Assembly (NCBI GenBank): GCA_029204225.1
Contig: CM055101.1
Location: forward strand, 59,194,094 to 59,258,093
From: Diphasiastrum complanatum
Lineage: Eukaryota; Streptophyta; Lycopodiopsida; Lycopodiales; Lycopodiaceae
Reading direction: 5' to 3'
Length of the DNA stretch: 64,000 bases
Made by a program: the position numbers and the translations under genes
The notes under the pieces: generated by a model
What the model was told of the DNA's origin: nothing
What the model saw: only the letters and a program-made list of their open reading frames with translations
Database searches by the model: none
Shown here: piece after piece, positions 4,882-47,945 of the stretch
How the letters are laid out: every line of letters begins with the position of its first letter
How positions within the stretch are numbered: position 1 is the first letter of the stretch

Positions 4882-7800
4882 GTGTGAATTTTTATTTTAC
4901 TTTTTATCTTCCCTTCACCTTACTCTACTGCAGCATGCGAAACATCTCAAATTGCAATCTTTTTGTGCTTTGAAAATGTGGGCAAAGGGAAAAGCTTGGA
5001 TTGCATAGGTCCCTATAAATTTTAGTTGCCAAAAGATGGTTTCAACACCAAGTGGACTTTTTTGAACGAACAAGCTTGGCAATATAGTCAGCAACATTGT
5101 TTGAAGTATCACATTTTTGCAATAGTACTTTGTTTTTTCCGCCATGTCCCTCACAAAAGGAAATTATGCATTAATATGTTTTGACTGAACATTATAAGTA
5201 GAATTTCTGGCTAAAAAATTGCATATTAGCAATCTCAATCTATCCTTACACATTTCTGTTGAGAACCAACATCAGAACACAACCTCTGCAACCATGCTAC
5301 TTCATAAGTAACTGCTCACGCACTTAGTACAACCACTTAGCTGATTAGCATGCATGATAAAACTGTGGCCTCTCCCTCCTCATTGCCTTCCAAATTGGCT
5401 TTGCTGCACCAATTTGTTGTTATACTCGTCAAGTGAATCATTCCTTTTTAAATAACATTTGTGTCTTTGGGATTCAGCTTGCATAAATTTATGCAATTTG
5501 TTGAGCTCTGGAATCTGGCTGGAAGATTCAACTTTTTCCATTGGTCGTTTGCTGTAGGAGATAGTAGAACTGGCCATCTGCTGCTATTTATATGAAGCAG
5601 TTCTTGCCCACGTGAGCCTACAGGTTTCTGCATCATGTGGAAGTTGGCTGTAAGGGTTTTCCAACTAGAATCTTCCAGGAAGTTACGTGGGGCTGTTGCA
5701 TGTAGGCAGCAGCTATAGAGACAAAAACCATTCCTTCTTAAATTCTCTTTGTGCTAGTTGCCATCCGCCCTTGCTCATTAGTGCTTATTAAGGATAGAAG
5801 ACACTCTTCTGATGGAACTTCTCCTGCCTAGCAAAGGCCTTCAATGTCTATAAGGTTTTTGTTCATCTTTGGCAGACTATATTTTTTATGGACAAGATCT
5901 TGCAATTGAAAATTCTGATTGGAGCTTCATTTCTTGGTGGATTTTGCAGTGGAGGGGAAAATGGCAGGCATGTATCCAATGTTGCATCAACGACTGCTCT
6001 GCAGCAACAATGAAAGCTATGCCGACTTACAGTAAAAAGAAATATATTGTAGCTTACTTTCCAGCCACTCGCATGTATTCTTGGATAGATACTCAACATG
6101 TATGTGCAATTTCTGAGAATCCAGAACCACTTGCTGGTGGTTCTCATGAGAGTGCAAGGGAATCCGTCAAAGATATTGATATGCCAAGACGTGGCATGCT
6201 AAGAAGCGTAGCAGCAACTATGTGCGATATTAGTGATCGTCTTCCAATTAAGGTGTGGTTTTAGGGCCTCGAGTTCGAATTTGCAACCTTCGCAGCTCTT
6301 GACCCTTTGGATGAAAATAAAATACTTTCCTAAGTTGAATAAATATTTAGCTATGCATTCTACACCCAAGAGTGACCAGGAAGATTTAACCCTCTTGCTC
6401 ATGAGAATGGTCGAGTAGCCCTGTACTGCTTCTGCTTATGTGATGCAACAATCCTCTATTGAACTCATCTTTTTTACTTTGAAGCTCAGTATGGAAAATT
6501 TGTCTCAGACAGAACTGACAATTTGCTTGTTATGATGCATATTATAACTTTGGATATGCATCGGAAAAAAATTTATTTGCTTGTCTTTATGAAGATCATT
6601 CTTGATATTCAGCCTTATAGTTGCTTCTTGGGGATTTGCTAGCCAGGCAGTGATTGAAACTGCTCAAGATGCTGGAGTTTGGAAATCATTTGCCAAGGAG
6701 GCAGTACAATCAAAGGAGTATTCAGACATCGGCAAGTTACTCATCAGGCTTTTTGGAGTAAGTTGATATACTTTGTTCACACTATCCTGCTTCTCATGTT
6801 GACTTCATCCATAATTTCTAATTTTCACTTATTTGATCCAAAAAGTCATCTTGAATGAGATGTGCTTCTTTTGGAATTTAGATATGTAAATAGTCACTCT
6901 GATAGCAAGGTAACTTTTGTATTTTGAGGGACTCCACACGTACTGATGGTCTGGAAGGGGCACTGTCTAGATGATTGTTAGGAAATATTTGAAGTCATCG
7001 TGGGTGAATAACTCCTTCAGCAGATGGAAAAAGGATTGTGAGAATGCCGAATCTGCCTCTTCAATTGAAAAATTGAACAAGGTAGTCATCTTGTGCTTTT
7101 GTGTGAATACTATTTGTGTGAGACGTATGCTGACATCAAATGTCATCAACCACAAATTTGTGAAGAATATTAATCACTTTTTGAATTCTTTCCTGGAGGA
7201 ACTTTCGTCTCTAAGCTTCTGGCATTACGTATTGACACCTTTGTGCTTTTGAGTTTTTTTTTTATGATAGGAGTTGATAAACGCAATTCTATGGGAAGAA
7301 GTTGCTTTGCTCTGGGATAAACCTGAGCAGTCAACTTTAGGTTCCGAATGGAAGGATTGGAAGGAGGCTGTTTTTGTGGGTGGTGTAGAGGTCGGAAATG
7401 GCGGGAAAGTCACGACATTTAAGACTGTATCAGCTCCAGACCTTGCTGATTCAAATTTACAAAATAGTCCAAATGGAAGCCTCATAAGACGCAGGAAGGA
7501 ACCACCAATGCAACAAGCCTGGCCTTGCAATGGAGTCGATAGCACAAAATTTGAGCTAAGTAGAAAGCGTTCCAAGCTTGAGATTCGTCGCCGCGTTCCA
7601 TATCCTGTCTCTGATACAGAGCCAGCGATGGAAAGGCATGACCAGCCTCTGTCAGGTGTTTCCACTTCTCAATCAGCTTCCATGATGTCCTTGCCTGCAA
7701 AACAATCAAAAAATGAAACACAGAAAGATGACATTATGCATTCACCATATTTTAAGCAGACTAGAGAATTAGGAGCAGATGATTTAATACCCTCTTCAGT

Positions 7801-10800
7801 TAATGCAGAACATTCAAGCACGATTGCAGCCAAAGATTCTGCTGTAACTAGTTTTCAAGAAGGCATTCCAGAAAATAGTAACTTGGCTCTTCCTATTACT
7901 CCAACTAGCAGGAGATTATCAATGAATGGTAGGTTTTGCCTGGCTTTTGTTGCCCACAAGAACAGACAATGCACTCGGTTTGCAAATGAAGGCTCCTTAT
8001 ATTGCTGTAAACACTTGAATTTTGCAACTAATGAAGCTTCTGAAAAGTCTGAGAAGGTAAAGTATTTATCTGGCCAGCTTCGAGGAGACAATGCATCGTA
8101 TAAATCTCCTGCACTTTCATTTCCAAGAACGTCATATGAGTGTAGAGATATTTGTCGTGCAATGACCAAGTATGGAAGGCGATGTGCTTTTAAGGTGATT
8201 AAGGGTTCTATTCACTGCAAGAGGCATTCTGTCCAGAATGATGCAATCTGCAGTGGGGAAGATGTTATGGTTCTAGGTGACGGAGAGAAGCCCGTGACCC
8301 AAGCCATTGAAATCTGTCCTGCAAATGTAGAGCCTGGTGCGCTCTCTTTCCCGACAGCATCAATTGGACCCGGGAGTTTGACAACCTCAATAGAAAGGAA
8401 ACTGTCAAACTGGCGGCGTTGTATTGGCTGGTGTAAACGCAACGGTGAACAATGCTCACATAGGGCAAAAGTTGGTACACTATATTGTAAAAAGCATTTG
8501 TGGTTGGCAAAAATCTCTGTAGATGCTAGTTCTCAGAGATTCCAGCTTCAGGAGACTACATCTAATGCAGATGAAGACAAATTATCAAGATCCAAATTTA
8601 TGTTGGATAATTATTTGAAAACAGCCCTTGCCCTTAATGACAGGGCAGATAGGGATGAAACTGGGGTGAAATCCAAAAAAGAACTAGCCGATAAAGTTCT
8701 TGCTGAGGCTTCCAAAGACATGGTAGTTGCAAGAATTCTTCTAAGGTTGGTAGTGCAACAAAAGCTAAACCTTGAAGCAGTTTTTGGTCTACAGAATTCA
8801 AAGGATCTGAGAAACTCTGAAGCCATTGTCAGAAGTGGAAATTCTCAAGAACATGAAATTGCTCATCTCTCTATTGCAGATGAATTGAAAACTGAGACAA
8901 AATCTGGGCCACATATTAACTGCTCAGATGTAAGAATGTTAGATCAGGATCTGAATCGTTGTAATAATCAGGCTGATAAACTTAAATGCAGCATATGTAT
9001 CGAGGAATTCATGGAACTAGTAAGCCTTGGATGCCATTGGAAGACTTCGCATTATAAAGAAGCTCAATGTTTTCTAAAAGGTTACATATGTAGGGTTTGT
9101 GGCCAAGAATTGACCAGTAAACCTGCAATTGACAGGCATTGGAAAGCTCAACATGAAGGTTTACTACAAACACCTGCCATGCCTATTTGCATGGTTTGTG
9201 ATGGAAATTTTATTGATTTTGACATCTTATGGGAGCATGTTGTGTCTATTCATTCTGATCATCTCAGTGGAGCACCTACAGCCTCATCACTACCAGCTAT
9301 ACCTAGCACCTCGCAAGATGTTAACGATGCTATATGCAGTCCAGCAGCAAATGTGCTTACAGCCGTTTGCAAAGGTGATGCCCAAGATATCTTGACTGGT
9401 GTTTCAAATTCTAATCTACCTGTTGCATCCATCCCTTCCAAGGTTGAAGGTGATATTTTAAAATTTAAATGCAAGTTTTGTGGAAAAAGATTTCGGATAC
9501 TTCCAGATTTGGGAAGGCACCATCAGGCAGAACATATGACCTCGAATCCACCAGGATGTCAGACAAAAAAGGGGAAGCATTATCAACGAAGTTTCTTGAA
9601 TCTGCACAATACAGAATCTTCTGGAACAATGCTTTTAGCACCTTCTGCAGGAAGGTGGAAAAAGCGTAGTAAAGTTGTGAAGGACGGATTGAATTCGTTA
9701 CTACGAATTAAAGCTGCAGTGCAGAGTCTAAAACAGCAAAATCAGACAAAGAACACAAACAAGGAAATATGTGAGAGTTCAGTTTCTCCTAATGATGGCC
9801 ACGGATTTTTAGGCAATGGATTATTGCTGTGGAGTGGGCCAAGATTAACTGGCTCACCTAGTGATGATGATATTTTATCTGTTGCCAATTCTGTTTGCTG
9901 TATAGTTCGCCTTTGTAGTCTTCTAGAGAGCAAGTACGAGACTTTGCCGCATGAATTTTCTGAAAAAGCTTTTGAGCTTTGCAGAGGAGCGATGTTAACA
10001 TTGGACTGGATTAAAGAAGGTTTTGTTTGTCCAAACGGATGCAAAAAGCATGGAAACCCACTTGACTTAGCTGCAGTCTTCAATGCAACACCAGCTGATA
10101 TGGCCGAAGGAAATTTTGGGTCCTTGCAAGAAAAGCTAAGCTCTGATGCCTTTCCAGTGTCTAATACTCATGCAAACTCTGTGAAGGTAATCTGCGAAGA
10201 TGTAAGTTCTGGACAGGAATCAGTTCCAGTCCCTTGTGTGGTGGATGAAGATCTGATAAAATCATGTAACTGCGCAAGTTGCAAAGAAGGGAATGCCAGT
10301 CAAATGGATGCTTCAAATCCATGGGAGACTTTTTCGTACATCACCAGACGTCTACTAAAACCTTCTTTGGGACTTGATACTAAGGTAAGGTTGCTTCCTT
10401 GATTCTTAAGACATTTTCTGAGTTTCCATGCTGTATTTCTATTTTCTTCAAAATTTTAGCTGAGTATCTCCACAAATTTGGGTGTATTTGTTTTCACAAT
10501 TTCAGTAAAGTGCTATCGTGCTTTGTGAGTTACATAGTGGCAAAATTTTGGAACTACTTACCACTCTTTAGAATTGGTTCAAACTTGCAATTTTGTTGGT
10601 GGTCAGAAACAAATGGTCCCAACATAATTTTTCTTCAAGAATGTTCTTCATCTTGAACTTCTAGACAATGTAGCTAATGCCATCTATCTTGCTAGCTTCA
10701 TGAAGCAGGCTCTAAAAAATATTAGACATGATTAGATTCAGAAAGGTAAAAGAAGGTAAACTAAGGTTTGGACCCGATCTCGGATATTATGCCACTTGAT

Positions 10801-13800
10801 AAATACCCTCAACTTCTAACTTTGAATCTATCATACACCACTGTTCTAGCCCTTGTCCAAGATCAACTTGGCACCTTCACAAGATCCTTTCGCAAAAAGT
10901 TACAAGCTAATTCTCCACAAGTTGCTCTACACAACTGTAAAGCCCAATACAACCACCTGGATAGGAGATAAGCATGCAAGAGAACGGGTTGTGGCAAGAA
11001 CCACTCAACCAACGGTCTGAAAGGTTAGACGCCCCCAAGCTGATCCGGATCTATATAAGATAGTATGGTAGCTAGACAATAGAGAGGTTGATTGATTGTC
11101 GATACTCAAAATATGTTGACATGAAAGGTATCAGGGCATAGATATACTCTCCCAAACCCTAGCCTCCATATGACATGTAGATTGTTTTTTCAGGATAATC
11201 CATCTCCACGCATGGCTATAGTACCCAATATAGGCAATTATCCACACCACTCTCGCATGAGACAACGCCTTAACCAAATAGGATGATAAGGCCTATTTTG
11301 ATTTAAGGTTGCCATATGGTATAGGCTAGGCCCTTATACCCAACCATACACATTCAAGGACATAACAACGACTTTTTGAAAAAATTTGTTTGCTATGGTT
11401 GTCATCCTCATAACGATAGCTCTCCATTAGTACCAACTACAACCTGAAAAGAACTGTATTCACAGGTGATCGCCCACTTTCAAGATTGAGGTGCTTATTC
11501 AAGGATATGATGAAGCTCTGATACCATGTTGAAACCTGTAGATCATCCTATCTAGCATCATAACTGTGATAGATGACAATAAACATGTCAATTGCATAAT
11601 ACAAATCATTCAGATACACGGAGAGTCAAGAAAGTTAGCAAATACATAGAAAGCTCCTTGACCAAGAGAGATGGATTCCAACAAGTAAACAATCAATTAG
11701 TTGGAGGGCGTGGAAACCCCTCAAGATCTAGGTGGTCTTGGGTGCTACATGTACAACATAATTTTTGGGATACCTGAGGTGTCTTAGTAGATATTCAGCT
11801 CCAGGCCCTTTGTGGGCTTTGTGTTCTACTTTGCCCTACGCGTTAAATGTGCATAAGAGGGGTTCACATTGAATTTATCTAAATACCCCAATAGCATATG
11901 CACACCTTACAAGTTACAATTATACAAGGCCAAAAGGGGTAAAGATGGCATTTATTTCAACACAACTCTCTCACACCTCAACATTCCTTTCTTCTATATC
12001 TCTTCTCTAAGATTTCTCTCTCCACTCTCTTGGCCTTTTAAATTTCTAACATCTAACTTCTGAAATCTCTCTCTCTCTCTTATGATGATGAGAAGGGGAG
12101 GAAGGGGAGGGATTCCCCCCCCCGCTCATGCAACCATCCGTGCTGCTCATAGTTGGCCTGATTTTTGGAGATTCACCTGCCACTCTCATAGTGGCGGCTT
12201 TAGTGTTGTGAATTATCTCTTGGGATCACCTCCTTTCATTCTATTCATCTCAAATTTTCATATCTCCACCATCACTCTTTCAGACGACTCATGCCTCTCT
12301 TTTATCTTGGCCACATCATACCACCTACTTCATACCCTTCTTCTAATCCTCATTAAGCACCAAAATACATTTTTGATAAGACATACATTCCCTAGTACCA
12401 AGAATCTCTTACGACCTTACTCCATCATTTTCCCCATAATATACCTCTTGAATCTCAAGCTACTTTCCTCACCACTACTTTACGCACGGCTGCCCCCATA
12501 GCTTTTCCATTCAATCGATCTCATCCCAAAACCTCATCTGGATCAGCTAAACAACCCTGGTATGATGTCGAGTGTCATTATTACCATGCACCCAAAGTAC
12601 AAGAGCAAGAGAAAGCTAGAACTATTGAGTTCCTACCCTTGATTGATTCCACGGATGAGGAGCTTAGTCCAGAGTCCTGTGAGCCTGAAGAGCAAGTGCA
12701 ACAACAGGAATCTGAACATGCTAGTTCGAGACCTCAATTTGGCCAAGTACAAGAGGGCGGAATTGGAGAGAACTAGAAGACTAGGACAATACCATGGGAT
12801 ACGTGGTCACCATCCACATTGCCTACCACTAGGAAGAAGCTACCAAAGTGGTATTGGAAAACAATCAAAGAGGGCCACATGATGGAAGAAGGAGAGATTA
12901 GTGAACAAGGTGCTTGAATATCTCTTAGGTCTCATGAGAGACAAGAGATTAGCTTTGCTCTTATGTCCACAATTCTAGAAGCAGACGAGCCACAGTTCTT
13001 TCACAAAGCTGTGAACAAAAAGGTATGGCAAAAACCATGCATATGACTCCATTGTGAAGAATGACACTACATTGTGAAAAGGGAAGCAACTGATAGGTTG
13101 CAAGTGGGTGTATCAGACCAAGTTTCATGCTAATGGAACAATAGACAAGTACAAGGCAAGGTTGGTGGCGAAAGGCTACGCCCAACAAGAGGGGCTAGAC
13201 TATGATGAGACGTTCGCACATGTTGCTAAGATGACACCTATTAGAACCGTATTGGCCTTAACCTCCCATCAAATGGATGTCAAGAGTGCCTTTCTCAATG
13301 GGCAACTTTAGGAGGAGGTTTATATGGAGCAACCGCAGGGATTTGTGATAACAGACAAAGAGCATCTGGTTTGCAAGCTTAGAAAGCCTTGTATGGGCTC
13401 AAAGTAGGCGCCAAGGGCTTGGTATAGCTCGAATTGACAAGGTCTTTGCAAAGCAAGGGTTTGAGAAGAGTAAGGGTGATTGCAATTTGTATGTCTTCAA
13501 GGAAGGTGAAGACTTTGTTGTTGTTGAGCTCTATGTGGATGACTTACTCATCACCGGAAGCAATAATAAGCTTATTGCTTGTGTTAAGAAGAATCTTTCT
13601 TGTGAGTTTGAGATGAAAGCTTTGAGCTTGCTACACTGTTGCCCAGGAGTTGAGGTTTGGGCAAGGGAAGCGCTGTCTTTTTATCTCTCAAGCAAAGTAT
13701 GATGAATTCCAAGACCTAGCTATGGAGTATCTTAACCATAGTTGCAGCGAATCGCGATTCACTGGGATTGCGATTCTTGAACCGCGATTCTGATAGTGAA

Positions 13801-16800
13801 TCGTGAAAAAAAATTTAATTTAATTTTTTGTTTTTTTGGAAAAATAGCCTATGGCTGAAATTTTTTTACGGGAGCAATGGTCAAACCAGCGTTTTGCCTC
13901 CCAGAAGTGTAGTAGATAGGGTTCAAACGGATAAAAGTCAATGCTATTTGGTTGTTATTTGCTTGGTTCTCAGTAATTGTTAATGCTACAGTTTGGGCTA
14001 TCAACTCTGTGGATGATGATCACTTTTGCAATCATTTCACTGGAGATGTGAGTGCAATGTGCATACAATTGGGGGCATAAATATTGGACCCTTATCGGCG
14101 CGCATTTGGACCCCATTTTAATCTATGGGGGGGTGCTGTTGAAATAAATGCCTATTTTGCCCCTTGAGGCTTGTATACTTGTAACCTGTAAGTTGTGCAT
14201 AAGACGTGGGGGTAAAACATTTATGTACGTAGTACACCCCACTTGTGCTAATTAGGCAAGTAATAACAAGTAGGTTGAGGACCCTTATGGTTAGAATTAG
14301 CAAGACACCACCTCTATACATTACATGCTAAATGTAGCCCAAAGTTTGGAGGGGTTTCCATGCCCTAGTATTTGAATAATCATTCAATTTGTGTGAACTT
14401 TGAAGTCCTCTCTCTCTTGCTTTTGTGTTCTACTCCATAGCTGGTTTTTTCAAGCTTTCATAGTGTGCTTACTATGCTGTTATGATACTCCATAGCTAGG
14501 CCTTGGAATTTGTCAAGTGCCCCCCCTAGTATTGTCGCCGGGGGGGGCGGGGGGGGGGTCGGCGACAGCCACCTAGGCCCCCCTTAGCGGGGGGATTGGG
14601 GGGCAGTGCCTCCCAAAGCAAAAAGCGAGGTACAATTGCTCTACAGTTCTCTATCTCTGTCCCACTGGAACCATATGTGATCGTCATGAACAAGCTAGAG
14701 GTTAATTTTGAATTTTTATCCTTGACAGAACCCAACATGGATTAATGCACCTGAACTGGACCATCCTGTACCCGAAACATTCGGCAAACCACACAGTAAT
14801 AATGCTCTTAATTAGAGCTTTCATCTGATACCCATATTGCCCAAGAAAAAAAAAACGATTCTAAACGATTCTAGAATGTTTCCGAATCGCGATTCTAAAC
14901 CGCGATTCGGAACGCGATTATGAATCGTAGTGCATCTATGATCTTAACTGCAATACTAAATCAACCAAGAAAGCTTGAGAAAGTTAGCTATGGAAAACAT
15001 GAATTACAAGGAGCATTGCGTAAGCACCTCACAACACCAAAATTTACAAAAGAAAATGAATAGCTAAAGAGAGAGAGGAGGGTGAGGGTCCTCCAAGTCC
15101 TTTGTAAGGCAAGCAATACATGCATGGAAAGTATACGTTTCAATCATAAGAGTGAGCTACTTGGCCAAGTGGGCCACTTCACTATTTTATTTAAGTTACA
15201 AATAGGGGTCATGTATTTGATTAATAACATGTCCCATAAATAATGTACAGCTTATAACATAATTAGTGCTTAGCCAAAGGGGTAAAATAGGCATTACTCT
15301 TCAACACCCCCCCTTAATGGCAATTTTATTTCAGCTAACATCCAACAAAGTTCTGTACTTCTCAAACTTATCTTTACTAAGATGTTTAGTAAAGATATTA
15401 GCAATCTAATCGTTGGTGTTGCAATACGTTAGCTCAATCTCATCACTGTGCACTTTTCCTTGTATAAAGTGCTAGTCCACCTCTATGTGTTTTGTCTGTG
15501 CATGGTAGACTGGATTTCTTGCAAGCTGAATGCAGCTTTGGTTATCACAATGTAATGGAAGGAAATGCATGTTTTGGATTATCTTTTCTTTCAGAAAGAT
15601 TCTTGCTTCTCATCTCCTCCTGTAAAACAAGAGCACATAACTCCCCAAAGGTTGGGAGTTGGGCCCTAGCAGAAAGGGCATCACATAGTCTTGACAGTTG
15701 AATGACAAACTATTCAAGACTATGGAAACAATACCTCCTATCACTTACTATCTCTCCCACTGAAGCAAGCTGGTCCATAAGATCCTTGACCTTTGTGATG
15801 TGATCATTGATTGTTGCACCTGCTTCCATCTTGAGAATGTGTAACCTGTTTTGCAAGTAAATAAGCTGAGCTGAATCCACTATTTTAAACATAGACTTCA
15901 GAATGCTCCAAGCTTCCATTGCATCCTTTGCATTGCAAATATGAGGAATAAAGTCGTCTTTGACAAGAAGATTGATCACCATATGAGCCTTCTGTCTCCT
16001 ACTAATGTGGTCCTTCAATTCAGGTCAAGATGTAGGTACAGGCTCTCTACCTGTAACTATCTCCCAACATTTCTTGTCCATCAAGATGTTAGCCATCTTG
16101 AACTTCCACACTTTGTAGTTTGTGCAATCGTGTCTGCTTGATTCACCCAACAAACTCTCTCCAAGACTAGCCACACTAAAATCTTTGCTCAAACAGAAGC
16201 TCAGCCTGAAAGGAATTAGAAAAGAAACAACTTCCAGCACCTCGGGTATCACCCCAAACTAGGGTATGTAGCCACTTCAAGGCAACCCTTCAGCTCCTTC
16301 TTTTGACTTTGCCACTTCATATGGCCTTCCTTGCTAGCACAAGCACTAGACGTCACTGGATCAAAAACCAAAAGCTCCTAAAGAAAGTGCGCCCTACTTT
16401 TGTGTAAGCTCCTCCAAAAAGTCTTCCCAAAACTCAGCCAAATTAAAATGTTTTTGGATCATCCCACTCTCCTTGCCAATAGCTCTCCAACAATACAAGA
16501 CTCAACTTGATCTGACTTCTCTAGATCAAAAGCGCTCTCTTACAAGATGGAGGTGCTTGTGGAAGATGAGAATCTTCTCAAGAATCTAAGCACTCACAGA
16601 CTCACAGGCTAGACAACCTGCTCTGACACCATGATGAATTGCAAGACCTAGCTATGGAGTATCTTAACTGCAATAGTAGATCAACCAAGAAAGCTTAAGA
16701 AACTTAGCTATGGAAAACATCAAATACAAGGAGAATTGCATAAGCACCTCACAACACCAAAAGTTGAAAGAGAAAATGAATTGCTAGAGAGAGAGAGGAG

Positions 16801-18906
16801 GGCGTGGGTCCTCCAAGTCCCTTGTGAGGCAAGCACCTCAAGTACATGCAGGTGTCAATCATAAGAGTGAGCTACTTGGCCAAGTGGACCACTTGCACTA
16901 ATTCACTTAAGTTACAAATAGGGGGGTCTCCTGTATTTAACTAATTGCATGTCCTATGAATAACGTACAAGGAACTCTGTTTGACGTGAACCAGTCCTGG
17001 CATTAAAATTGCAAATCAATAATATATGACCCCGCTCTAAATAACAAATAATATCAAAGGATAAATCAGCATATGGAAAATTGGCACCTCAGCAAAAGAA
17101 GATGTCACAGGAGGAAAGTACTATGCAAACCTTCCACTGGAGGCTTAGAAGCCCGTTCTGTGACTCTTTTGGGCCGGAAGTACTGTTCGTTCCATACAGT
17201 ACGTACTAGGTCGGAACGTTTTTTTTAAATTTAAAAAACAGGTATAAAGTGCCACCTGCTGGCCGCAAGCTTCGTTCTTGATATTACATTGAGGGACGCT
17301 AGATATCAGAAATGCTGGAAAATATACAGTTCAAGCAGAAACAAAATTGTACTAGCTATTTGAACCATGGCTAGTACTGGGGTGATCATAAGGACCAGCT
17401 CGATCTGTATAGTTTCCCTTGGACCGCAATGGACCACCAGCACCATATCGGTTGCTGTCACGTCTTCCATCTCTGTCATATCCTTTATCTCGATGTCCAT
17501 GTCTTGTCTGACGCTAGATAATGCATATCTTGTCTAACTCATGCAACTAGGAGTCTTGGAAGCCGCTATTTTTATGTGATTGTGTGCTGATACAGAGCTG
17601 CTTGTAGCCAAAAAATCTGGCAAAAATGAATGAAATTTTTGCAGCTAATGCTGATCCTAGGATCGCTATCTGAGCCACGTTCTTAAGATCTGTAACAGTT
17701 TGCTATATTTAACCTGTGCCTAACAAGTAATGTTTTGTTTTGTCATGCAGAGTTCACAGCTGGGGTGCTCTTGTAAAGAGACTAAGTGCTCACCCGAGTC
17801 ATGTGATCATGTGCTTCTTTTTGATTCAGACAACACGGATGCCTGTGATATTTATGGGCAGTCGATGCATGGAAGGTTCCCATATACTATTTCTGGTCAA
17901 ATTATTCTGCAAGTAAGTGTACTTTTGCTGCTACCTACTGGTGGTTTTATGATACAAAAGGCTGCACTTGTTTTGTTGTTGGGGGAAGTGTTAATCTAAT
18001 TCTCTGCCAATATTCTTGTTAAGAAATGTTACAAAAAAATAGGCTTTGTATTGTTTAGGGTTTAGGGTTTAGGGTCGACGTCACGTGGGCAACTAGTCGG
18101 AGCATGTCTTGGTAGATGTCCGCCGACACAACGAACGGAAGCTAGAAGGAGGATTTCACGAGAGCCAGTGAGAGATAATGGGTAGACTACCGGAGCTGCA
18201 GCTACGTGCCCTCATAGTCCTCGGACCTGCTCCCCCCTGACCAAGTTGGCGTGGGCGAGGAAACGCAACGGATTGGAATTAACTTCACCGTAGAACAACT
18301 TCCCATGGTCCGGGACAGGGTCCCTCGTCGTCGGGCCAGCCAGTAGGTCTTTTGGTTCCGGGTAGTGAACGACACAGTTATGATGACCATCCACTCCACT
18401 GGCGACCATTCACTCCCTGTAGTGCTTGGAGAAATGGGACCGTCGGACGGATAGCTGCAGAACTAGTTCATTTGGATTGACCTAATTGCGTTTCTAACCC
18501 GTCGAACGACCATTTTGACCGGACGATGCCCAAATCGGGCCAGGCTCGGTCCCCTGAGTACGTACCCGCTCTACGAACCAGTGGACTGTATTCCTGGACC
18601 ATTGATACATTCTACGCAGGTTTAAGTGTATGCTGCGAAAGTGCAGCTTTGATGTTGAACCTGCACATACCTGTGGTGCAATGCCTACGACACAATGAGG
18701 ACGTGGGTGGGGTTGATGATGTTTATGGATGATGATTATGCTTGTGGCTTGTTTTGATGGTTATGGCTGTGGGGTTGTGGGTTTAGGGTGATTTGTTAGG
18801 GTTTGGGGTGTTGTGTTAACTGTGCCATTTGTTGGGGTGTCGGGTTTAGGGTCTTATGTTAAATGGTTGAACATGATGCATATGTTTTGAATGAGATGCA
18901 TATGTG

Positions 18907-25400: not shown

Positions 25401-28400
25401 TTACTGTGCACGGGTTGAACGTCAACGAAACACAACAATGGAGGATGAAATGAGATGCATACTTGAGAAAAGACACGCAGTGCAAGGCGCTGTATGGATG
25501 GATAGGTGCTACCGAACATGGTCCACCAGGTAATGGGAAGCTGCCTCATCTCTGGATCCTGAGCAGCCGGGTGGGCGAACGTGCCCATGCCGAAACGAAA
25601 TGCAGCTAGCTCCTCCATGAGCCTAATAGGATCCAAACCAATGTGTGGACCCACCCTGTGAATGTACTCAAGCCAATCCGCCTCGAGCTCCCTGTCTGCG
25701 ATTTGTGTCGGAGAGAGGGAGAGGGGATGCAGTATGTGTGCAACGCTGTGGATACTCCTGTGGAAGTAGTTCCATCGCGTCTCCTAGGTGAACTTCAAGG
25801 GCATTATGAAAAAACGTAACATTGACAGAAAAACAAACTAGCAACTACTGAAAAGATAAAGACCAATTACATTACTATACTGCTTACCTCTCTGGCTGCA
25901 AGATGGGCAGCTGCAGGAACTGTCCAATCCACTCCATGAGCTCATACACCAGTCCAAGTGTCGACCCCTCGCTGTCAGCCATGCGAAGCACAATGTAGAG
26001 TGGTCGAAGGAGTCCTGACAATGTCTGTGCATCCCTCCAGAACTGGTCTCCCCTCACCGCGGAAGAAAAGTGTTCCCCATCCTCAGTGTGCTGAAACGTA
26101 CTGGCACGCGAAAGATCACTGGCAACCATCTGTAGAAGCTGCGCCCTACACCTGATCAAATGGTCGATGACCACCAAGTCGAATGCAAAGCGTGTGGGGG
26201 CTGGCTTACGGAGGTCTTGATGGCTGAACACCCGGAACGTGGCAAGAACATGCCTCTTCCTGGTGACGAAATTCACCAGGAAGAGGGCCTCACGGACGAT
26301 GGCTCTAACCCAGGGAAGTGCACCTATGTCCGCCATCAGAAGGTCTATGCCCTGCGCTGCATAGGGGGTATGAACGATGTGAGGGAACTCGGCCTCTAGC
26401 AGTACACCCACCTGAATGCAGTTGGTGGCATTGTCCGTCACCAGCGTGATGACATGTTGTGGGCCTATGGACAGGATGGAAGACCTAATGACATCAAACA
26501 TGAACTCTGCAGATACGACTCTCCCCCTCCCCTGCTGCAATCCACGGCCCTCAAAAACTGTGTGCCCATGCAGCTAGAGACCAAGATGTTGAGGATCGGC
26601 CTCCTCCTGACATCAGTCTAGCCATCGGACATGATGCTGCAACCGTAAGTGGCCCAGTGGCGACGTAGAGGCTCCATCTCTCTAGACAAGGACTCGACCC
26701 TATCCCTTAGCATGTGTGTGCGGACAACCTCTGAACTAGGGACTCTCCAGCTAGGGCTGACAGACTGTGCAAGGTGGAAGGCCCTTCTGAAGGGCTCAGA
26801 GTCGGTGATGGCAAATGGAAGGTTCAGCTCATAAATCAGAGTGGCCTCGGCCTGGCCTCTCTATCCATGTGCGGCTGATGCGTGCCGCGAATGCTCTGCT
26901 GCCTAAGAACTCTCCCAGTTGGGCGACGGGTAGCGGACTTCCAGCATGGTGCACCAACCGTGACGGGAATGGATGATGACACGACAGGCTGGGCACTAGT
27001 GGATGCATCGGCTGTAGACGTGGAATGGGGAGAGTGGGATGCACTGGCAGGGATGGGTGCAGCAGTATAAGTGGGGTGCACTGGTGGAGGGGCGACATGT
27101 GGCATGGGATACGAAAACTGCTGGCTAGGGAGGTCATCTAGATGGGAAGGGAGGGAGGAAGGGATCTCCTCAACATCCTGGAAGGCCTCGTCACCAGCAT
27201 CCTGGGCTTGCTCGGGTGGCGGAGAGTCCATGAGAGTTGTAAACTGGGGGAGTGTGAGCAACAGTAGGTGGTGGTGGAACCGCAATGGCAACTGTCGGAC
27301 GCGATGGGATGGGATCTAGCGGAATGGGTGCAGATGGGGGTGCTTGTGGCGGAACTGTCTGAGGGGGATGAGGGGCAAAGGGACTGGACGAGGAGTCACT
27401 CCCTCTCCTCGTGCGTGCCAGCCAAGCAGGCAGCAACTCGGGGTCAACCAAAGGAGCGGTGCAAAACTGGAGAACACCCTCCGAAATGATGTTCTCCTAC
27501 GCCACAAGACGTGGCCCGTAGGTGTCCAGAAGTCGCTGCCTGACGGGGACGAACATGCTGCCACAAAGGGCAGCATTCAGTGTGCCACCATTTTTGGCGC
27601 GTGCGCCGAGCAGGTGGCCTTTAAGGCGAGTGAGGGTGGCAACGAACTCAACCGGGCAATATCGACAGCGCACGTCTTTGCACCGGACTTGTTGGACTTG
27701 TCGGGAACCCGCCTGACAATGTCCACCTCATCCCACAGATCGAAAAGGTTGGAATGCACCATTTCTGTAGAAGGAACTGGGGAAAAAAGGTAGAGATGAT
27801 CGTGAGTGCGATAGGCTGGAAAATCCACAACAATGGACGAAATAGCAGTAGCAGGGGCGGGAGCGATTTGTGCAACGTGAAGACAGTGTGATGGCGAGGA
27901 GGGCGCAGACAGCAGGGAGGGCGCGGACAGCTGGAAGAGGGCGCAGACAACAACGCGATGGGTAGGGAGAGAGATGAAGCGAGGGGGGGGGAATTAGGGT
28001 AAAAATATATATATAAATATTAAATATATTATTTTATTGTGGTACCGCGGTACCAGTGTGGATCCGCGACGGTACCGGGATCCGCGGATCCTGGTACCGC
28101 TGTGATATATATATCATAGTTGCAGCGCGATTTTCGAATCGCGATTCCGATTCGCGATTCGGGATTTTCCCAGAATTGTGTAGAATCGAATTTTTTTTTT
28201 TTTGTTTGAAATTGTTTTAGGCAATATGGGTATCAGATGAAAGCTCTGATCGAGGGGATTATGATTGTGTAGTTTGCCGACTGTTTCGGGTGCGAAACAC
28301 CAAAAAGTGTTTTCACTCGGGGAGTTGGAAGGCCAAATCATGAAGAGGCCTTACCGTCGGAGGGCCGTTGGGGGGCGTTGCCCCCCAAACCCCCCACCAA

Positions 28401-40892: not shown

Positions 40893-43800
40893 CCCCCCAG
40901 TAGAGTAAGGTTTCTCAGCCTCAGATCACTTCTTTTTTCTCCAGGAGGAGAGGACGATTTGATGACGGTGACGATGATGATGATGACCTATGTTACAGCT
41001 TTTATTCCCTGTCCCGGTTGTTTATTGTCTTTACTTATAGATGTACTTCTTGTAAATACAGAAATGGCTAAGTCACCGGCCTGTGGTGACCCTTGTAACA
41101 GAAATGTCAATAAAGTTGTTAATGATGTTTTTGAGCCTCAGAGTTGCATGTTGCTTGGGTATAGGAGGGTACTGGGTCATTAATTCGGAGTGGTTGGACT
41201 GACCTCCTAAAACGTAGGAGAGTTGACTAGTCAACATGACACATGTCATATGCTCACTAGGACAGTTGGTCCAGTGAATGAGTGACACATGTCAGGGTTG
41301 ATTGGTCAAACATGACACGTGTCACATGCTCACTGGGACATTTGGTCCAATGGATGAGTGACACATGTTAGCCTACTCACTTGCGTGTGTGCCAGGGTAC
41401 TGCCAAGTGGCAAGTGTCGACAGTGCATGGAGTTGGCCATGTGTCGAGATTTAGGAAGGGTCAGGGTTAAGGGGTGCTTGAGGATTTTGGATAAGTGAGC
41501 CTAGAGAGAGGCATTCCTCATCATAATCTATGCAGCAAAGGCTGGGAGGAGACAAGGCAGCCAACTCCATCTTGTGTTAGAAGTAACTTGATGCTTGTAT
41601 GTGTAGGAAATGAGCAAGGTTTGAAGAGAAGATCAGAGAGGGAGTCTGACACTTGGTATCAGAGCCAAGGTTTGCAAGTTTTGGAAGCCTGGGACAGCAA
41701 AAAACAAAACGTTCTAGAGAGAGAAAGGGCAGTTTTTTGCTCATAACTTTTGATTGAGAGCTCAGATGGCTATGGGATTTGTTGCAAACTGTTCCTATTG
41801 CCAAGGCACAATAGATTAGTCACAGGAACCAACCCCAGCAGTGAAATCCAAGCGATTTCGAGAATTTTCTTGTAGCTGGTGGGCGCTGGCAGGCTGAAGA
41901 GTTTTTTCTTCGTTACTTTCCGCTTGGTTCTTGGATCATCCTCAAATTTTGGGAGTCTTCTAGGCAGACCTCAAGGGCTGTAGTATGCAATTCACAACAA
42001 AGAAAACGGAGTCCTATGGTGTTTTTCCAAAATTTGGTTCTCATACATAGGTGCAAAACTAGCTGAGTAGAATTTGCTTGATGATTGGGCAATCCTAGCC
42101 GGACTGTTAAGGGTTGATTGGAAAGCAAGCAGGAGGGCAACCTACTACAAATTGACCGCTCAGGAAAAGTCCAAGTCTCTAATTTTTTGGGCCAAAATAC
42201 AAGGAAAAAGGGTTTTGAGAGTTGTAACCTCATTTTTGCCGGCAATTTCAACTTCTAAACAAGTGGACAGCCTCCAACATTGCAAATATGGATCCATTAG
42301 GAGGTGCAAGCACAGAAATCTTGAGAAGTGGCAGCCAAGGTGGATGCTATGGAGGTGATTTTACAACAAATTCTCGACAAACTAAAGTCGGCTAAATCTC
42401 CACAAGAACCTGAAAGTTTGTGGAACGGCTATGGTAGCCGTTGAGCCTGTGACAGTTGAGAAAGAAGCTGAACAACCATCAAAGATGCGGAAATTGCCCA
42501 CAATTAAATATTTGAAACCGCCAAAATACACAGGAGCAGTTGCAATACGCAACACCGATGCAATTGAGAATTGGATTCAGAAATGGGAAAAGGCTTTTTA
42601 GATGTGTGGTATTGATGATGATGAACAGAAGGTTGCAAAAGCCACATATCGCTTGCAAGAGACGGCACAACGCTGGTGGCGTAAAATTGAGAAGGATAAT
42701 TGGGTGCCTGCAACTTGGGATCAGTTTAAGCAGATGTTCGTTGAGAATTGGGTGCCATTAGATGAAAAGAATCAGGCGATGCAAGCCTGGTCAAGCCTCA
42801 AACAAGGCAATGCGTCCGTACATGAATATGAAGACAAATACAGAGAAGCACTGATGTGGATACCAGAAGAAGTGCCAATGTTTTTGTAAGTATTCCAGTT
42901 TGTGGAGGGCTTGCGTGACAGCCTTAGGCCTTTCGTGAGAAAGGAGCAGGCTCCAAGCCTCCATAGGGCGGTACAGATGGCCCTATACTATGAGGATGGA
43001 AAAAAGGCCAAGGAGTCTCAGACACCTACTTCAGGAGGGTTTCAGCCTTGGGGGAAAAGAAAGTTTAAAAAATGGAAGGGTCAATCCTCACAAGAGCAAA
43101 TTCAGAGTGCGAAAAAGAGTAAAGGTGCGGGCGCCTCAAAAGGCAAAGGGCGGTATGCGACGTCCAATATGCTATCGCCGCAGGACTTGGAGCGGGCAAA
43201 GAAAGAGAACCTTTGCTTTGGCTGTCTAGGTTGGCATAGGTGGAAGGAGTGTGCTCGCAATCCCTCACAGACCACCTACAGTTTGCAAGTTGAGGAGGCA
43301 GATCCTATGAAAATTGAGGAATTGAGACAAGAAGAACCTCCTGATGTTCCACGGTTGATGAACGTGGCGATGATTCGGAAGGTGGACTCGGTTCCTTTGC
43401 CACAGTTGTCAAGAGCGGCACAACACGGGTATCAGTTTCCTTGCACTTCTTTGATTGTTATGCGTGGACAACTGTGTGGTAGAGATGTTTTGATTCTATT
43501 TGACACTGGGTCCTCACATAAGGTCATTAACTCCGCTTTGATCAAACGGTTGAGAGTGAGCACACAACCATCCCTGTACCAGTACACAATTGAAATGGCT
43601 GATGGAAAGGGTGCGGAAGTGTGGGATGCCAGGGTTGTGGGTACGTCTCTAACTATCAGAGCTATACTGAGGAGTTAGAATTTGAGATTACCCGTTTGGC
43701 TCGCTTTGATATGGTGCTTGGAATTTGTTGGCATGTGGCTAAGAAATCCTACATCGCTTGGGATACTCATGTGTATGAGTTCCAGCATGATGGTAGGATT

Positions 43801-46800
43801 CACTCCCTGCGTGGAGAGCCTAAAATGCCTCCAAGACCTTTGATCACGGCGACACTGTTGCATAAGGTTCAGTGTAAGTGCATGTATGTTTGTTTCTTGT
43901 ATGATATGTCTGTTTCTGCTAATGAGTCTGATGTATATCAATAACAAACTAACCTTACTAAGAACCTAAATCGCCAAATTAGGGAGGAGTTTCTAGATGT
44001 GTTTACGAATGAACTTCCATCTATTTTACCCCCTAAAAGAAATGTGGAGCATAGAATCGAGTTAATTCCTGGATCATCTCCTGTTAATAGACCACCTTAT
44101 AGAATGAGTCTGAAAGAGGAGGAAGAGGTCAGAAGCATGATTGAGGACTATCTTGCCAAGGGGCAAGTAAGACCTAGCTTCCCCCCCTTTGCCTCTTCGA
44201 TTATTCTAGTAAAAAAGAAAGATGGGTCTTGGAGAATGTGTGTGGTATCGAGGCTTGAACAAGATTACTGTTAAGCATCGATATCCTATGCCACATATAG
44301 ATGATCTTTTGGATGCCCTCCATGGTGATATAGTATTTAGCAAAATTGACCTAAAGAGTGGTTACCACCAGGTGAGAGTTCGAGAAGAGGATGTGCACAA
44401 AACTACCTTCCGGACTCGTTTTGGACACTATGAATTTTTAGTTATGCCCTTTGGATTGACTAACGCCCCTGCAACATTTATGATGCTAATGAACGATGTG
44501 CTTAGACCGTTTATGAGCAAGTTTGTGGTTAATTTTGTTGATGACATACTTGTTTACAGTTGTGGTGATCCTATGCATGTTAATCATCTAAGAACTGTGT
44601 TATCAACTTTGAGGGAAAATACATTGTTCGCTAATGATAAAAAAAAGTGAATTGTTTTAAAAAGAAATAACATATTTGGGTTTTATAGTGTCAGCAGATG
44701 GAATAAAACCGGATCAGCAGAAAGTTGTTGTTCTTCTTGCCTGACCTGTTCCTACAAACTTGACGACACTAAGAAGCTTTCTAGGGTTGGCTGTGTTTTA
44801 TCGTAAAGGTGTGAAGAATTATTCACACGTAGCTGCACCATTGACCGATATGTTACCGAAAAATAAATGGGAAGAGTGGACGGAAGTTCAACAGCGAAGT
44901 TTCGATGCTTTGAAACAAGCTGTGGCTGACTTTGTCACTTAAAAAATTGTTGACCCTCAAAAACCATTTGTCGTAGAAACGGATGCAAGTGACATTGCCG
45001 TTGGGGCAGTTCTGATGCAAGAGGGTAGGCCTGTGGCCTTTGAGAGCAAGAAGCTCAACTCGGCAGAGAAGAACTATCCAACTCATGAGAAAGAGTTGTA
45101 TGCCATTATCCTCGCTTTGAAGGCATGGAGGCATTATTTGTATTGTGCAGAATTCTATGTGTACACCAACCATAACACTTTGAGATATTTTTGCAACCAG
45201 CCGGACCTAAGAGGGTGGCAAGCCAGGTGGGCTGAGTTGATGCAGGAATTTCACATGGAGATTCGGTACAAGAAGGTTGCCGAAAATCGTGTGGCTGATG
45301 CATTATCTCGGATATTGTATCAAATGTCTTTTGTGGTTATAGAAAATGACCTGATTGCTAAGATTAGACAGGCTCAGCACATTGTCAAGGAATTGTGAGG
45401 GAGGCAAATCTTGCGCAAGTAGAATCTCAAGATGAGAGTTCTGGTCTCTTTGCTCACACTTACCTTGAATATACCATAGAAGATGGTATGATTAAGAGAA
45501 ATGGCAAAAATCTCGTCCCTGTTAGAAATCCATAAATCATAATATGGATGGACAGATCAGGATTCGAACCCAGGACCTCCCTCATACCGGATGGGATGCT
45601 CTACCACTGAGCTATCCGCGCTATTTTGATAGTTCTTCCTAGAGTGTGGATTGATATTCCAACACCCCCCCTCAAGACACACTTGGTTGGGGTCCTAGCT
45701 GTCACCTGCCCCACAACTTGGGCCACCTAACCATGGCTTTGACACCATGAACTGTTAGGTCTAACTTGGCTCTGATACCATGTTTGAAATCCATAAATCA
45801 TAATATGGATGGACAGAGTAGGATTCGAACCCAGGACCTCCCTCATACCGGATGGGATGCTTTACCACTGAGCTATTCGCCCTGTTTTGATAGTTCTCTC
45901 TAGAGTGTGGATTGATATTCCAACAGTTCCAGCTTGTGAGGAGCTACGTAAGAAGATTGTACATTTATGTCATGATAGCCCTAGTGCATGTGTGGTGCGG
46001 ATAAGACCTATGAGTTGATCTTACGTAACTTTTGGTGTTCTAAATTGAAAAAAGATGTTTACCATTATGTGACGCACTGTTTGAAGTGCCAGGTCAATAA
46101 AGCTGAAAAGATTAAAACTCGTGGAGTTTTACACCCTCTACCTATACCAGGTGGAAGATGGGAGAGTATCTCCATGGATTTTGTCACCAACTTGCCTTGC
46201 ACGTAGTTGCAGCATGATTCTATCTTGGTTGTAGTTGACAGACACACGAAAATGGCTCATTTCATTCCAACGCGTAAAAAGATTAATGCGGCTGGAGTAG
46301 CTAATTTGTTTATCGAGCATGTGTTCAGACTTCATGGATTACCATTATCCATAGTGTCTGACAGGGATACTCGATTCACTGGAAACTTTTGGACTGCAGT
46401 TATAGCGCAGGTTAATAATAGGCAAGCGATGGATCGAGCAAAGTCATATGCTGATCAGGATCGCACGCCTAGAGAGTTTGTGATAGGAGACATGGTGTTT
46501 TTCCAAGTACCCAAGGACTCTAAGACCCTTAAGACGGGAAAATGTTACAAGTTGTCCCTGCGTTATTATGGACCCTGGAAAATTGCTAAAAGAATCAGTG
46601 ATGTTTCTTATAAGTTAGATTTTCCTAAAACTTGTAAAGTGCATCCTGTATTTCATGTTTCTAGATTGAAACGGGTTTTACATAACGGTGATAACTTGTT
46701 GTCTGATGGTTTGTTTGCATTCCAGGAGCAGGGAGAAGTAACCCATGGGCCAACAAGTTTATTGGATAGGCGGGAGAGGCGTTTACGCAACCGTCTGATC

Positions 46801-47945
46801 TGTGAGTACTTGGTCGCTTGGCATGGCAGGCCTCTTTCTGATGCTACCTGGGAGACCGCGCACAGTCTGCGTGCACAGTACCCTAGCTTTGCCATCGCGG
46901 ACGATGTTACCCGAGGGGGGAAGGGATGTTACAGCTTTTACTCCTTGTCCCGGTTGTTTACTGTTTTTACTTATAGATGTACTTCTTGTAAATACAGAAA
47001 TGGCTAAGTCACCGGCCTATGGTGACCCTTGTAAAAGAAATGTAAATAAAGCTGTTAATGATGTTTCTAAGCCTCAGAGTTGCATGTTGCTTGGGTATAG
47101 GGTACTATGTCATTAATTCGGAGTGGCTGGACTGACCTCCTAAAAAGTAGGAGAGTTGACTAGTCAACGTGAGACATGTCATATGCTCACTGGGACAGTT
47201 GGTCCAATGAATGAGTGACACATGTCAGGGTTGATTGGTCAAACATGACACGTGTCACATGCTCACTGGGACATTTGGTCCAATGGATGAGTGACACATG
47301 TCAGCCTACTCAGTTGCCTATGTGTCAGGGTACTGCCAAGTGGCAAGTGTCGACAGTGCATGGAGTTGGCCATGTGTCGAGATTTAGGAAGGGTCAGGGT
47401 TAAGGGGTGCTTGAGGATTTTGGATAAGTGAGCCTAGAGAGGCATTCCTCATCATAATCTATGCAACAAAGGCTGGGAGGAGACAAGGCAGCCAACTCCA
47501 TCTTGTGTGAGAAGTAATTTGATGCTTGTATGTGCAGGAAATGAGCAAGGTTTTGAAGAGAAGATCACAGAGGGAGTCTGACAACCTACTTGCCCACAGA
47601 GATCAGAGACAGCGTCCCACACATACCCATGTTGCAGCACGAGCTACTCGACCTATCACGAGGAGACCTCTTCATCCTCCCAGACGACGTCAGAGACCAC
47701 CAGTGGCCCTTCATGCTGCAGGCTGTATTACATCCTTCTATAGCATCAGCATCAGTTGGATGACTAGATGATAGCGTCATACCTCACTCATGACTGTTCA
47801 TAGCTTTAGCTCTAGATTTGCTACTTTTGTTACTGTTTTGGAGACGTTTCATATGCTCCTATGGTTACCACATACTTGACATGTACATTTACTAGTCTTA
47901 TATGCCTTTTGGCATGGAAAAGACGTTAATAAAGCTTTTTTCTTA

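Follow-up and report, generated by a model that had tools for sequence, protein, structure and literature searches.

TRIM retrotransposons whose LTRs contain tRNA-derived sequence were named Helenus by Kojima (2024, PMC10886601), who also proposed the name TRIMp3 for any TRIM with a polymerase III promoter and left open whether Helenus is transcribed by polymerase III. As described there, Helenus occurs in Pucciniales and other fungi, in six animal phyla, and in Selaginella moellendorffii, the only plant named in that paper as carrying it. The elements range from 311 to 1263 bp in length, conserve motifs of box A (TRGCY, YGG) and box B (GGTTC), and have 5-bp target-site duplications (TSDs) in the plant and fungal families. 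Seven bivalve and 15 fungal families are predicted to encode tRNAs, most families being unlikely to encode a working one, and tRNA-derived SINEs were proposed as a possible source of the tRNA-like part. The Selaginella element, Helenus-1_SMo, is reported with LTRs of 120 bp, an internal part of 85 bp, and a TSD of 5 bp (Kojima 2024, PMC10886601).

Here we describe an element found in a 64-kb stretch of the genome of the clubmoss Diphasiastrum complanatum (hereafter, the window). Its 406 bp fall within the published size range of Helenus. Like Helenus-1_SMo, it is a small TRIM with tRNA-derived LTR sequence including boxes A and B, a primer-binding site (PBS), a polypurine tract (PPT), and a 5-bp TSD, and its host is also a lycophyte, from another order, Lycopodiales; the LTRs and internal part measure 145 and 116 bp, against 120 and 85 bp in Selaginella, a comparison made with the published description. 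The tRNA-derived sequence, with conserved box A TAGCTCAGTGG and box B GGTTCGAATCC, is present in both LTRs, and the TSD has the Helenus length, with one mismatch. Every structural feature of Helenus that could be tested at this locus is present, and the element is therefore a further Helenus-type TRIM, a kind already known; the plan of a TRIM with a tRNA promoter is itself not new. The first-pass annotation had named no established tRNA equivalent of Cassandra, a statement that has to be withdrawn, since Helenus is one (Kojima 2024, PMC10886601).

Several other systems share part of this organization. Cassandra likewise has the promoter of a small RNA gene within both LTRs of a plant TRIM; its LTRs contain 5S rRNA sequence, whereas those of the clubmoss element contain tRNA-like sequence. 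Ajax, a nemertean TRIM of 421 to 434 bp with partial 5S sequence, resembles the clubmoss element in its TRIMp3 plan and 5-bp TSD but is 5S-derived and resides in an animal (Kojima 2024, PMC10886601). The tRNA-derived SINEs are also short and noncoding, with a tRNA-type promoter of box A and box B, but have no LTRs, PBS, or integrase and rely on target-primed reverse transcription. Plant TRIMs, including those of Selaginella, were reported by Gao et al. (2016, PMC4717578) and agree with the clubmoss element in size and LTR plan. In the main text of that paper, no word begins with “tRNA” (0 occurrences), and tRNA-like LTRs are therefore not described there. Among the matches listed from the open-licence literature (titles and abstract openings), there was no other report of such an element from a clubmoss.

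Structure of the element and its insertion site

The element occupies positions 45520–45925 (406 bp; 145 + 116 + 145), exactly the borders first assigned to it, and is well under the TRIM limit of 1000 bp. It lies on the minus strand, which had not been specified before and on which the PBS, the PPT, and both tRNA-like sequences agree. Direct-repeat analysis places the 5′ LTR (TGTTGG...CAAACA) at 45781–45925 and the 3′ LTR (TGTTGG...CTAACA) at 45520–45664, both on the minus strand, starting with TGTT and ending with AACA. The LTRs had been called equal, which is correct for their length of 145 bp but not for their sequence: 136 of the 145 positions are identical, and the 9 differences comprise 6 transitions and 3 transversions.

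Between the LTRs lies an internal part of 116 bp (45665–45780, minus strand). The PBS, TGGTATCAGAGCCA (45767–45780, minus), follows the 5′ LTR with zero gap, so that the position annotated for a Met-tRNA-type PBS stands; the motif is the complement of the 3′ terminus of plant initiator-Met tRNA. A degenerate second copy, TGGTGTCAAAGCC (45735–45747, minus; 11/13 matching), starts 33 nt after the first PBS. At the other inner border, the PPT that had been claimed is indeed present as TTGAGGGGGGG (45665–45675, minus), a G-rich tract with one T pair at its start that touches the 3′ LTR. The element has no coding capacity, the longest stop-free frame over its whole length being 54 aa. A perfect 7-bp hairpin (ATCCATA..TATGGAT; 45789–45810, minus) separates the tRNA-like sequence from the PBS and recurs identically in the 3′ LTR at 45528–45549; the 32-nt piece containing it, chosen by eye after the palindrome had been seen, folds at −7.1 kcal/mol (z −2.43) and beats 196 of 200 shuffles.

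The flanks carry GTCCC on the left (45515–45519) and GTTCC on the right (45926–45930). The 5-bp duplication annotated earlier thus holds in length and is imperfect in sequence (4/5); a match of at least 4/5 was found in 1.8% of 200,000 random pairs of 5-mers from the window. In its size, LTR pair, PBS and PPT at the inner borders, noncoding sequence, and TSD, the element is a TRIM.

The insertion lies within a Ty3/gypsy element on the plus strand (40991–47583), the LTRs of which (40991–41651 and 46927–47583) are about 660 bp long and differ at 28 of 657 aligned positions. This host element is flanked on both sides by an exact 5-bp TSD, ACCTA (40986–47588 with the TSDs included), has pol frames interrupted by stops, and also carries a PBS motif of the TGGTATCAGAGCCA type after its LTR, at 41654. 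Removal in silico of the TRIM and one flank copy yields a frame that is stop-free for 50 residues before the junction and for 29 from the junction on. The 47-aa middle piece of the joined frame had no Pfam match at 0.01; the joined peptide presumably resembles the N-terminus of a gypsy integrase. In a Pfam comparison (6 proteins given, 4 matching), the neighboring frames returned RNase H and SH3 above the cut-off, and matches to the integrase core, integrase C-terminal domain, and chromodomain in the gypsy frames fell below it. Given the restored frame and the gypsy matches in the neighboring frames, we place the insertion in the gypsy pol region. The TRIM LTRs (9/145) are nominally more diverged than the surrounding gypsy LTRs (28/657), a difference that is not significant (Fisher p 0.38) and is compatible either with insertion of the TRIM shortly after that of the gypsy element or with its carriage inside the latter.

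These features bear on whether the locus is a retrotransposon at all. ARAGORN called 2 tRNAs in the 64 kb, both inside the LTRs and 261 bp apart, a spacing that would also suit tandem tRNA genes or SINEs, or a local duplication, in which the retrotransposon-like features arose by chance. Such an arrangement does not account for a repeat that spans 145 bp and has TG..CA ends, for a PBS and a PPT located exactly at its inner borders, for flanks that share 4 of 5 bases, or for an insertion that divides an open frame, and we regard it as scarcely credible.

A tRNA-like promoter sequence in both LTRs

The first-pass annotation had placed in each LTR a tRNA-like sequence of 73 nt that includes boxes A and B, and this was borne out by ARAGORN, Rfam, shuffled controls, and a scan for the boxes. 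The two sequences correspond to LTR positions 44–116 and lie on the minus strand at 45810–45882 in the 5′ LTR and 45549–45621 in the 3′ LTR, both called by ARAGORN as tRNA-Thr(GGT). The command that calls both real LTRs made no call when the 5′ LTR was replaced by its dinucleotide shuffles (0 of 4000). The Rfam tRNA model scored 34.3 and 31.7 bits (gathering score 29), and these were the sole 2 matches in the window at gathering score; 5S rRNA was not found in the element, the Rfam matches at gathering score being to tRNA only. A third match in the element, to Rfam RF04351 on the plus strand, reached 17.6 bits where the gathering score is 68 and was set aside as chance or antisense likeness to tRNA.

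In the 5′ LTR, box A TAGCTCAGTGG is located at 45865–45875 and box B GGTTCGAATCC at 45821–45831 (both minus strand), and both recur unchanged in the 3′ LTR at 45604–45614 and 45560–45570, respectively. A loose definition of box A followed 25 to 70 nt downstream by box B occurred twice on the two strands of the window, both times in the element. The tRNA-like parts share their strand with the PBS and PPT, which is the orientation that a promoter needs. The structure of the locus thus supports what had been proposed from the outset, a TRIM with a tRNA-like promoter of the polymerase III type in both LTRs.

The evidence for a folded tRNA is of a different quality. Both copies have one mismatch each in the acceptor, anticodon, and T arms, and the anticodon arm is defective in both, with an A-A mismatch in its stem and U33 replaced by C. 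In neither copy is the cloverleaf the minimum-energy fold (−8.8 vs −16.7 and −12.1 vs −23.9 kcal/mol); it falls short of the optimum by about 8 and 12 kcal/mol, and neither 73-mer folds better than its own shuffles (z +1.24 and −0.32). An intact cloverleaf with a consistent anticodon arm, as expected of a functional tRNA gene, was found in neither copy. It had been argued that the acceptor-arm bases in which the LTRs differ pair up in a reconstructed ancestor, and the arithmetic is right: 6 of 7 positions pair in each copy, and 7 of 7 once a pairing base is selected at each of the two variable positions. As proof that a folded tRNA was present at insertion, the reconstruction was rejected, because the bases were picked to fit, and the folds and the anticodon arm are poor. 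The poor folds, the A-A mismatch, and C33 therefore lead us to describe a promoter-bearing tRNA relic and not a folded tRNA; the sequence looks like a promoter rather than a tRNA.

The same observations weigh on the idea that the tRNA-like RNA itself is used, whether as a tRNA, as a signal for processing by RNase P and tRNase Z, as a primer, or for packaging. Recognition of both copies as tRNA by ARAGORN and Rfam, and an acceptor arm that could have paired fully in the ancestor, would agree with such a use, but other folds are more stable than the cloverleaf and U33 is absent along with the anticodon-stem pairing. For a role as primer, only 6 of 18 positions at the 3′ end of the tRNA-like sequence match what a primer for this PBS would need, and no such complementarity is described for other Helenus families (Kojima 2024, PMC10886601); cleavage at the tRNA ends would, moreover, presumably destroy the template. 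We therefore consider use of the RNA itself very improbable.

Differences between the LTRs are spread evenly, with 5 within the 73 nt of tRNA-like sequence and 4 within the remaining 72 nt, from which it follows that the two parts decayed alike after insertion. This is as expected of one dead copy, and the LTR pair alone therefore gives no evidence for selection on the tRNA-like part. Equal change, a tRNA fold degraded in both copies, and the 43 nt of LTR upstream of the tRNA-like part, which could carry other signals, would all suit a scenario in which TRIM LTRs captured a tRNA gene or the head of a tRNA-derived SINE that has since been a passenger, with transcription still performed by polymerase II. 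On the other hand, both LTRs keep box A and box B intact even though the 73-nt part took 5 of the 9 differences; their cores fit the consensus, their spacing is unchanged, and Helenus LTRs are described as conserved around the same two boxes (Kojima 2024, PMC10886601). Weighing these points, we consider a passenger role unlikely.

Proposed transcription and mobilization

A TRIM promoted by polymerase III and mobilized in trans is the best explanation of the locus, to which we assign a probability of roughly 80%. Judging from the sequence, transcription of the element by polymerase III is likely, and we infer the change from polymerase II to polymerase III that was first suggested, a supply of proteins in trans, and membership in a family. 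TFIIIC, TFIIIB, and RNA polymerase III would most likely assemble on the tRNA-like sequence in the 5′ LTR, and the RNA would begin at about LTR position 44 and proceed through the PBS, the internal part, and the PPT into the 3′ LTR. The element would offer no TTTT to stop polymerase III, the first at this site beginning 10 bp past the 3′ LTR; with a start near position 44, the R region would then take in all of the LTR from the start site onward. Reverse transcription of this RNA, primed by initiator-Met tRNA, would rely on proteins from an autonomous LTR retrotransposon, and priming at the PPT would be followed by integration in trans with a 5-bp duplication, as in the LTR retrotransposon pathway.

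The sense strand of the element contains no TTTT. Among 5000 simulated sequences of the element's composition 60% have none, as do 372 of 2544 window strand stretches of its length. Absence of TTTT is thus not significant given the composition of the element and was rejected as proof of polymerase III use. In Cassandra, the RNA terminates within the 5S sequence of the 3′ LTR, giving an 18-bp terminal repeat (Kojima 2024, PMC10886601), in contrast to the clubmoss element, whose LTR has no TTTT.

Searches for relatives of the element were negative within their scope. In the 64-kb window, blastn found no second copy or solo LTR beyond the element's own two LTRs; the remaining rows were short, with E values no better than 0.002, and the strongest of these fell on PBS sites. 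An exact scan of viral contigs, where the clubmoss element is not expected, gave 0 matches. Protein searches with its stop-free translations (54 aa sense, 48 aa antisense) gave no candidate, a result that says little because such short chance frames rarely enter protein sets. Five other TGGTATCAGAG sites were found in the window, one adjoining the gypsy LTR (41654) and four without resolved LTR pairs. As likeness to the TRIM was limited to the LTR end and PBS, no autonomous partner in the window is named. LTR-like ends followed by an initiator-Met-type PBS were seen at 11526 (minus) and 37525 (plus), and the possible ends of the former, TGTTGAAA..TTTCAACA, are similar to those of the TRIM.

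The clubmoss element adds a homosporous lycophyte to the patchy distribution of Helenus. With Selaginella as the sole plant in Kojima (2024, PMC10886601), the clubmoss case makes it possible to ask whether TRIMs with tRNA promoters are ancestral in lycophytes or arose twice. Tentatively, and with the odds rather against it, the elements of Selaginellales and Lycopodiales may form one old lycophyte Helenus lineage, in which the clubmoss LTR has no polymerase III terminator, R includes the entire tRNA-like part and continues to the end of the LTR, and the transcript terminates in the DNA beyond the element, in contrast to Cassandra with its 18-bp R. A practical consequence may be that predicted tRNA counts of clubmoss genomes are inflated by tRNA-like LTRs, as shown for Helenus LTRs in rust fungi (Kojima 2024, PMC10886601).

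Elsewhere in the window, the ORF at 7271–10402 is SUVR5-like (named from a Selaginella relative) and identical over 987 of 987 aligned residues to D. complanatum O6H91_10G100800, which by itself places the window in this species or a very close relative. It includes a 51-residue stretch (7655–7807) that is missing from the annotated D. complanatum protein and represents either an in-frame intron or an unannotated exon part. Two direct repeats of about 310 bp (14941–15249 and 16661–16969), 85% identical and 1.7 kb apart, have ends unlike those of TG..CA LTRs. A match to DUF659, a domain typical of relatives of hAT-type transposases, lies at 25884–26573 on the minus strand.
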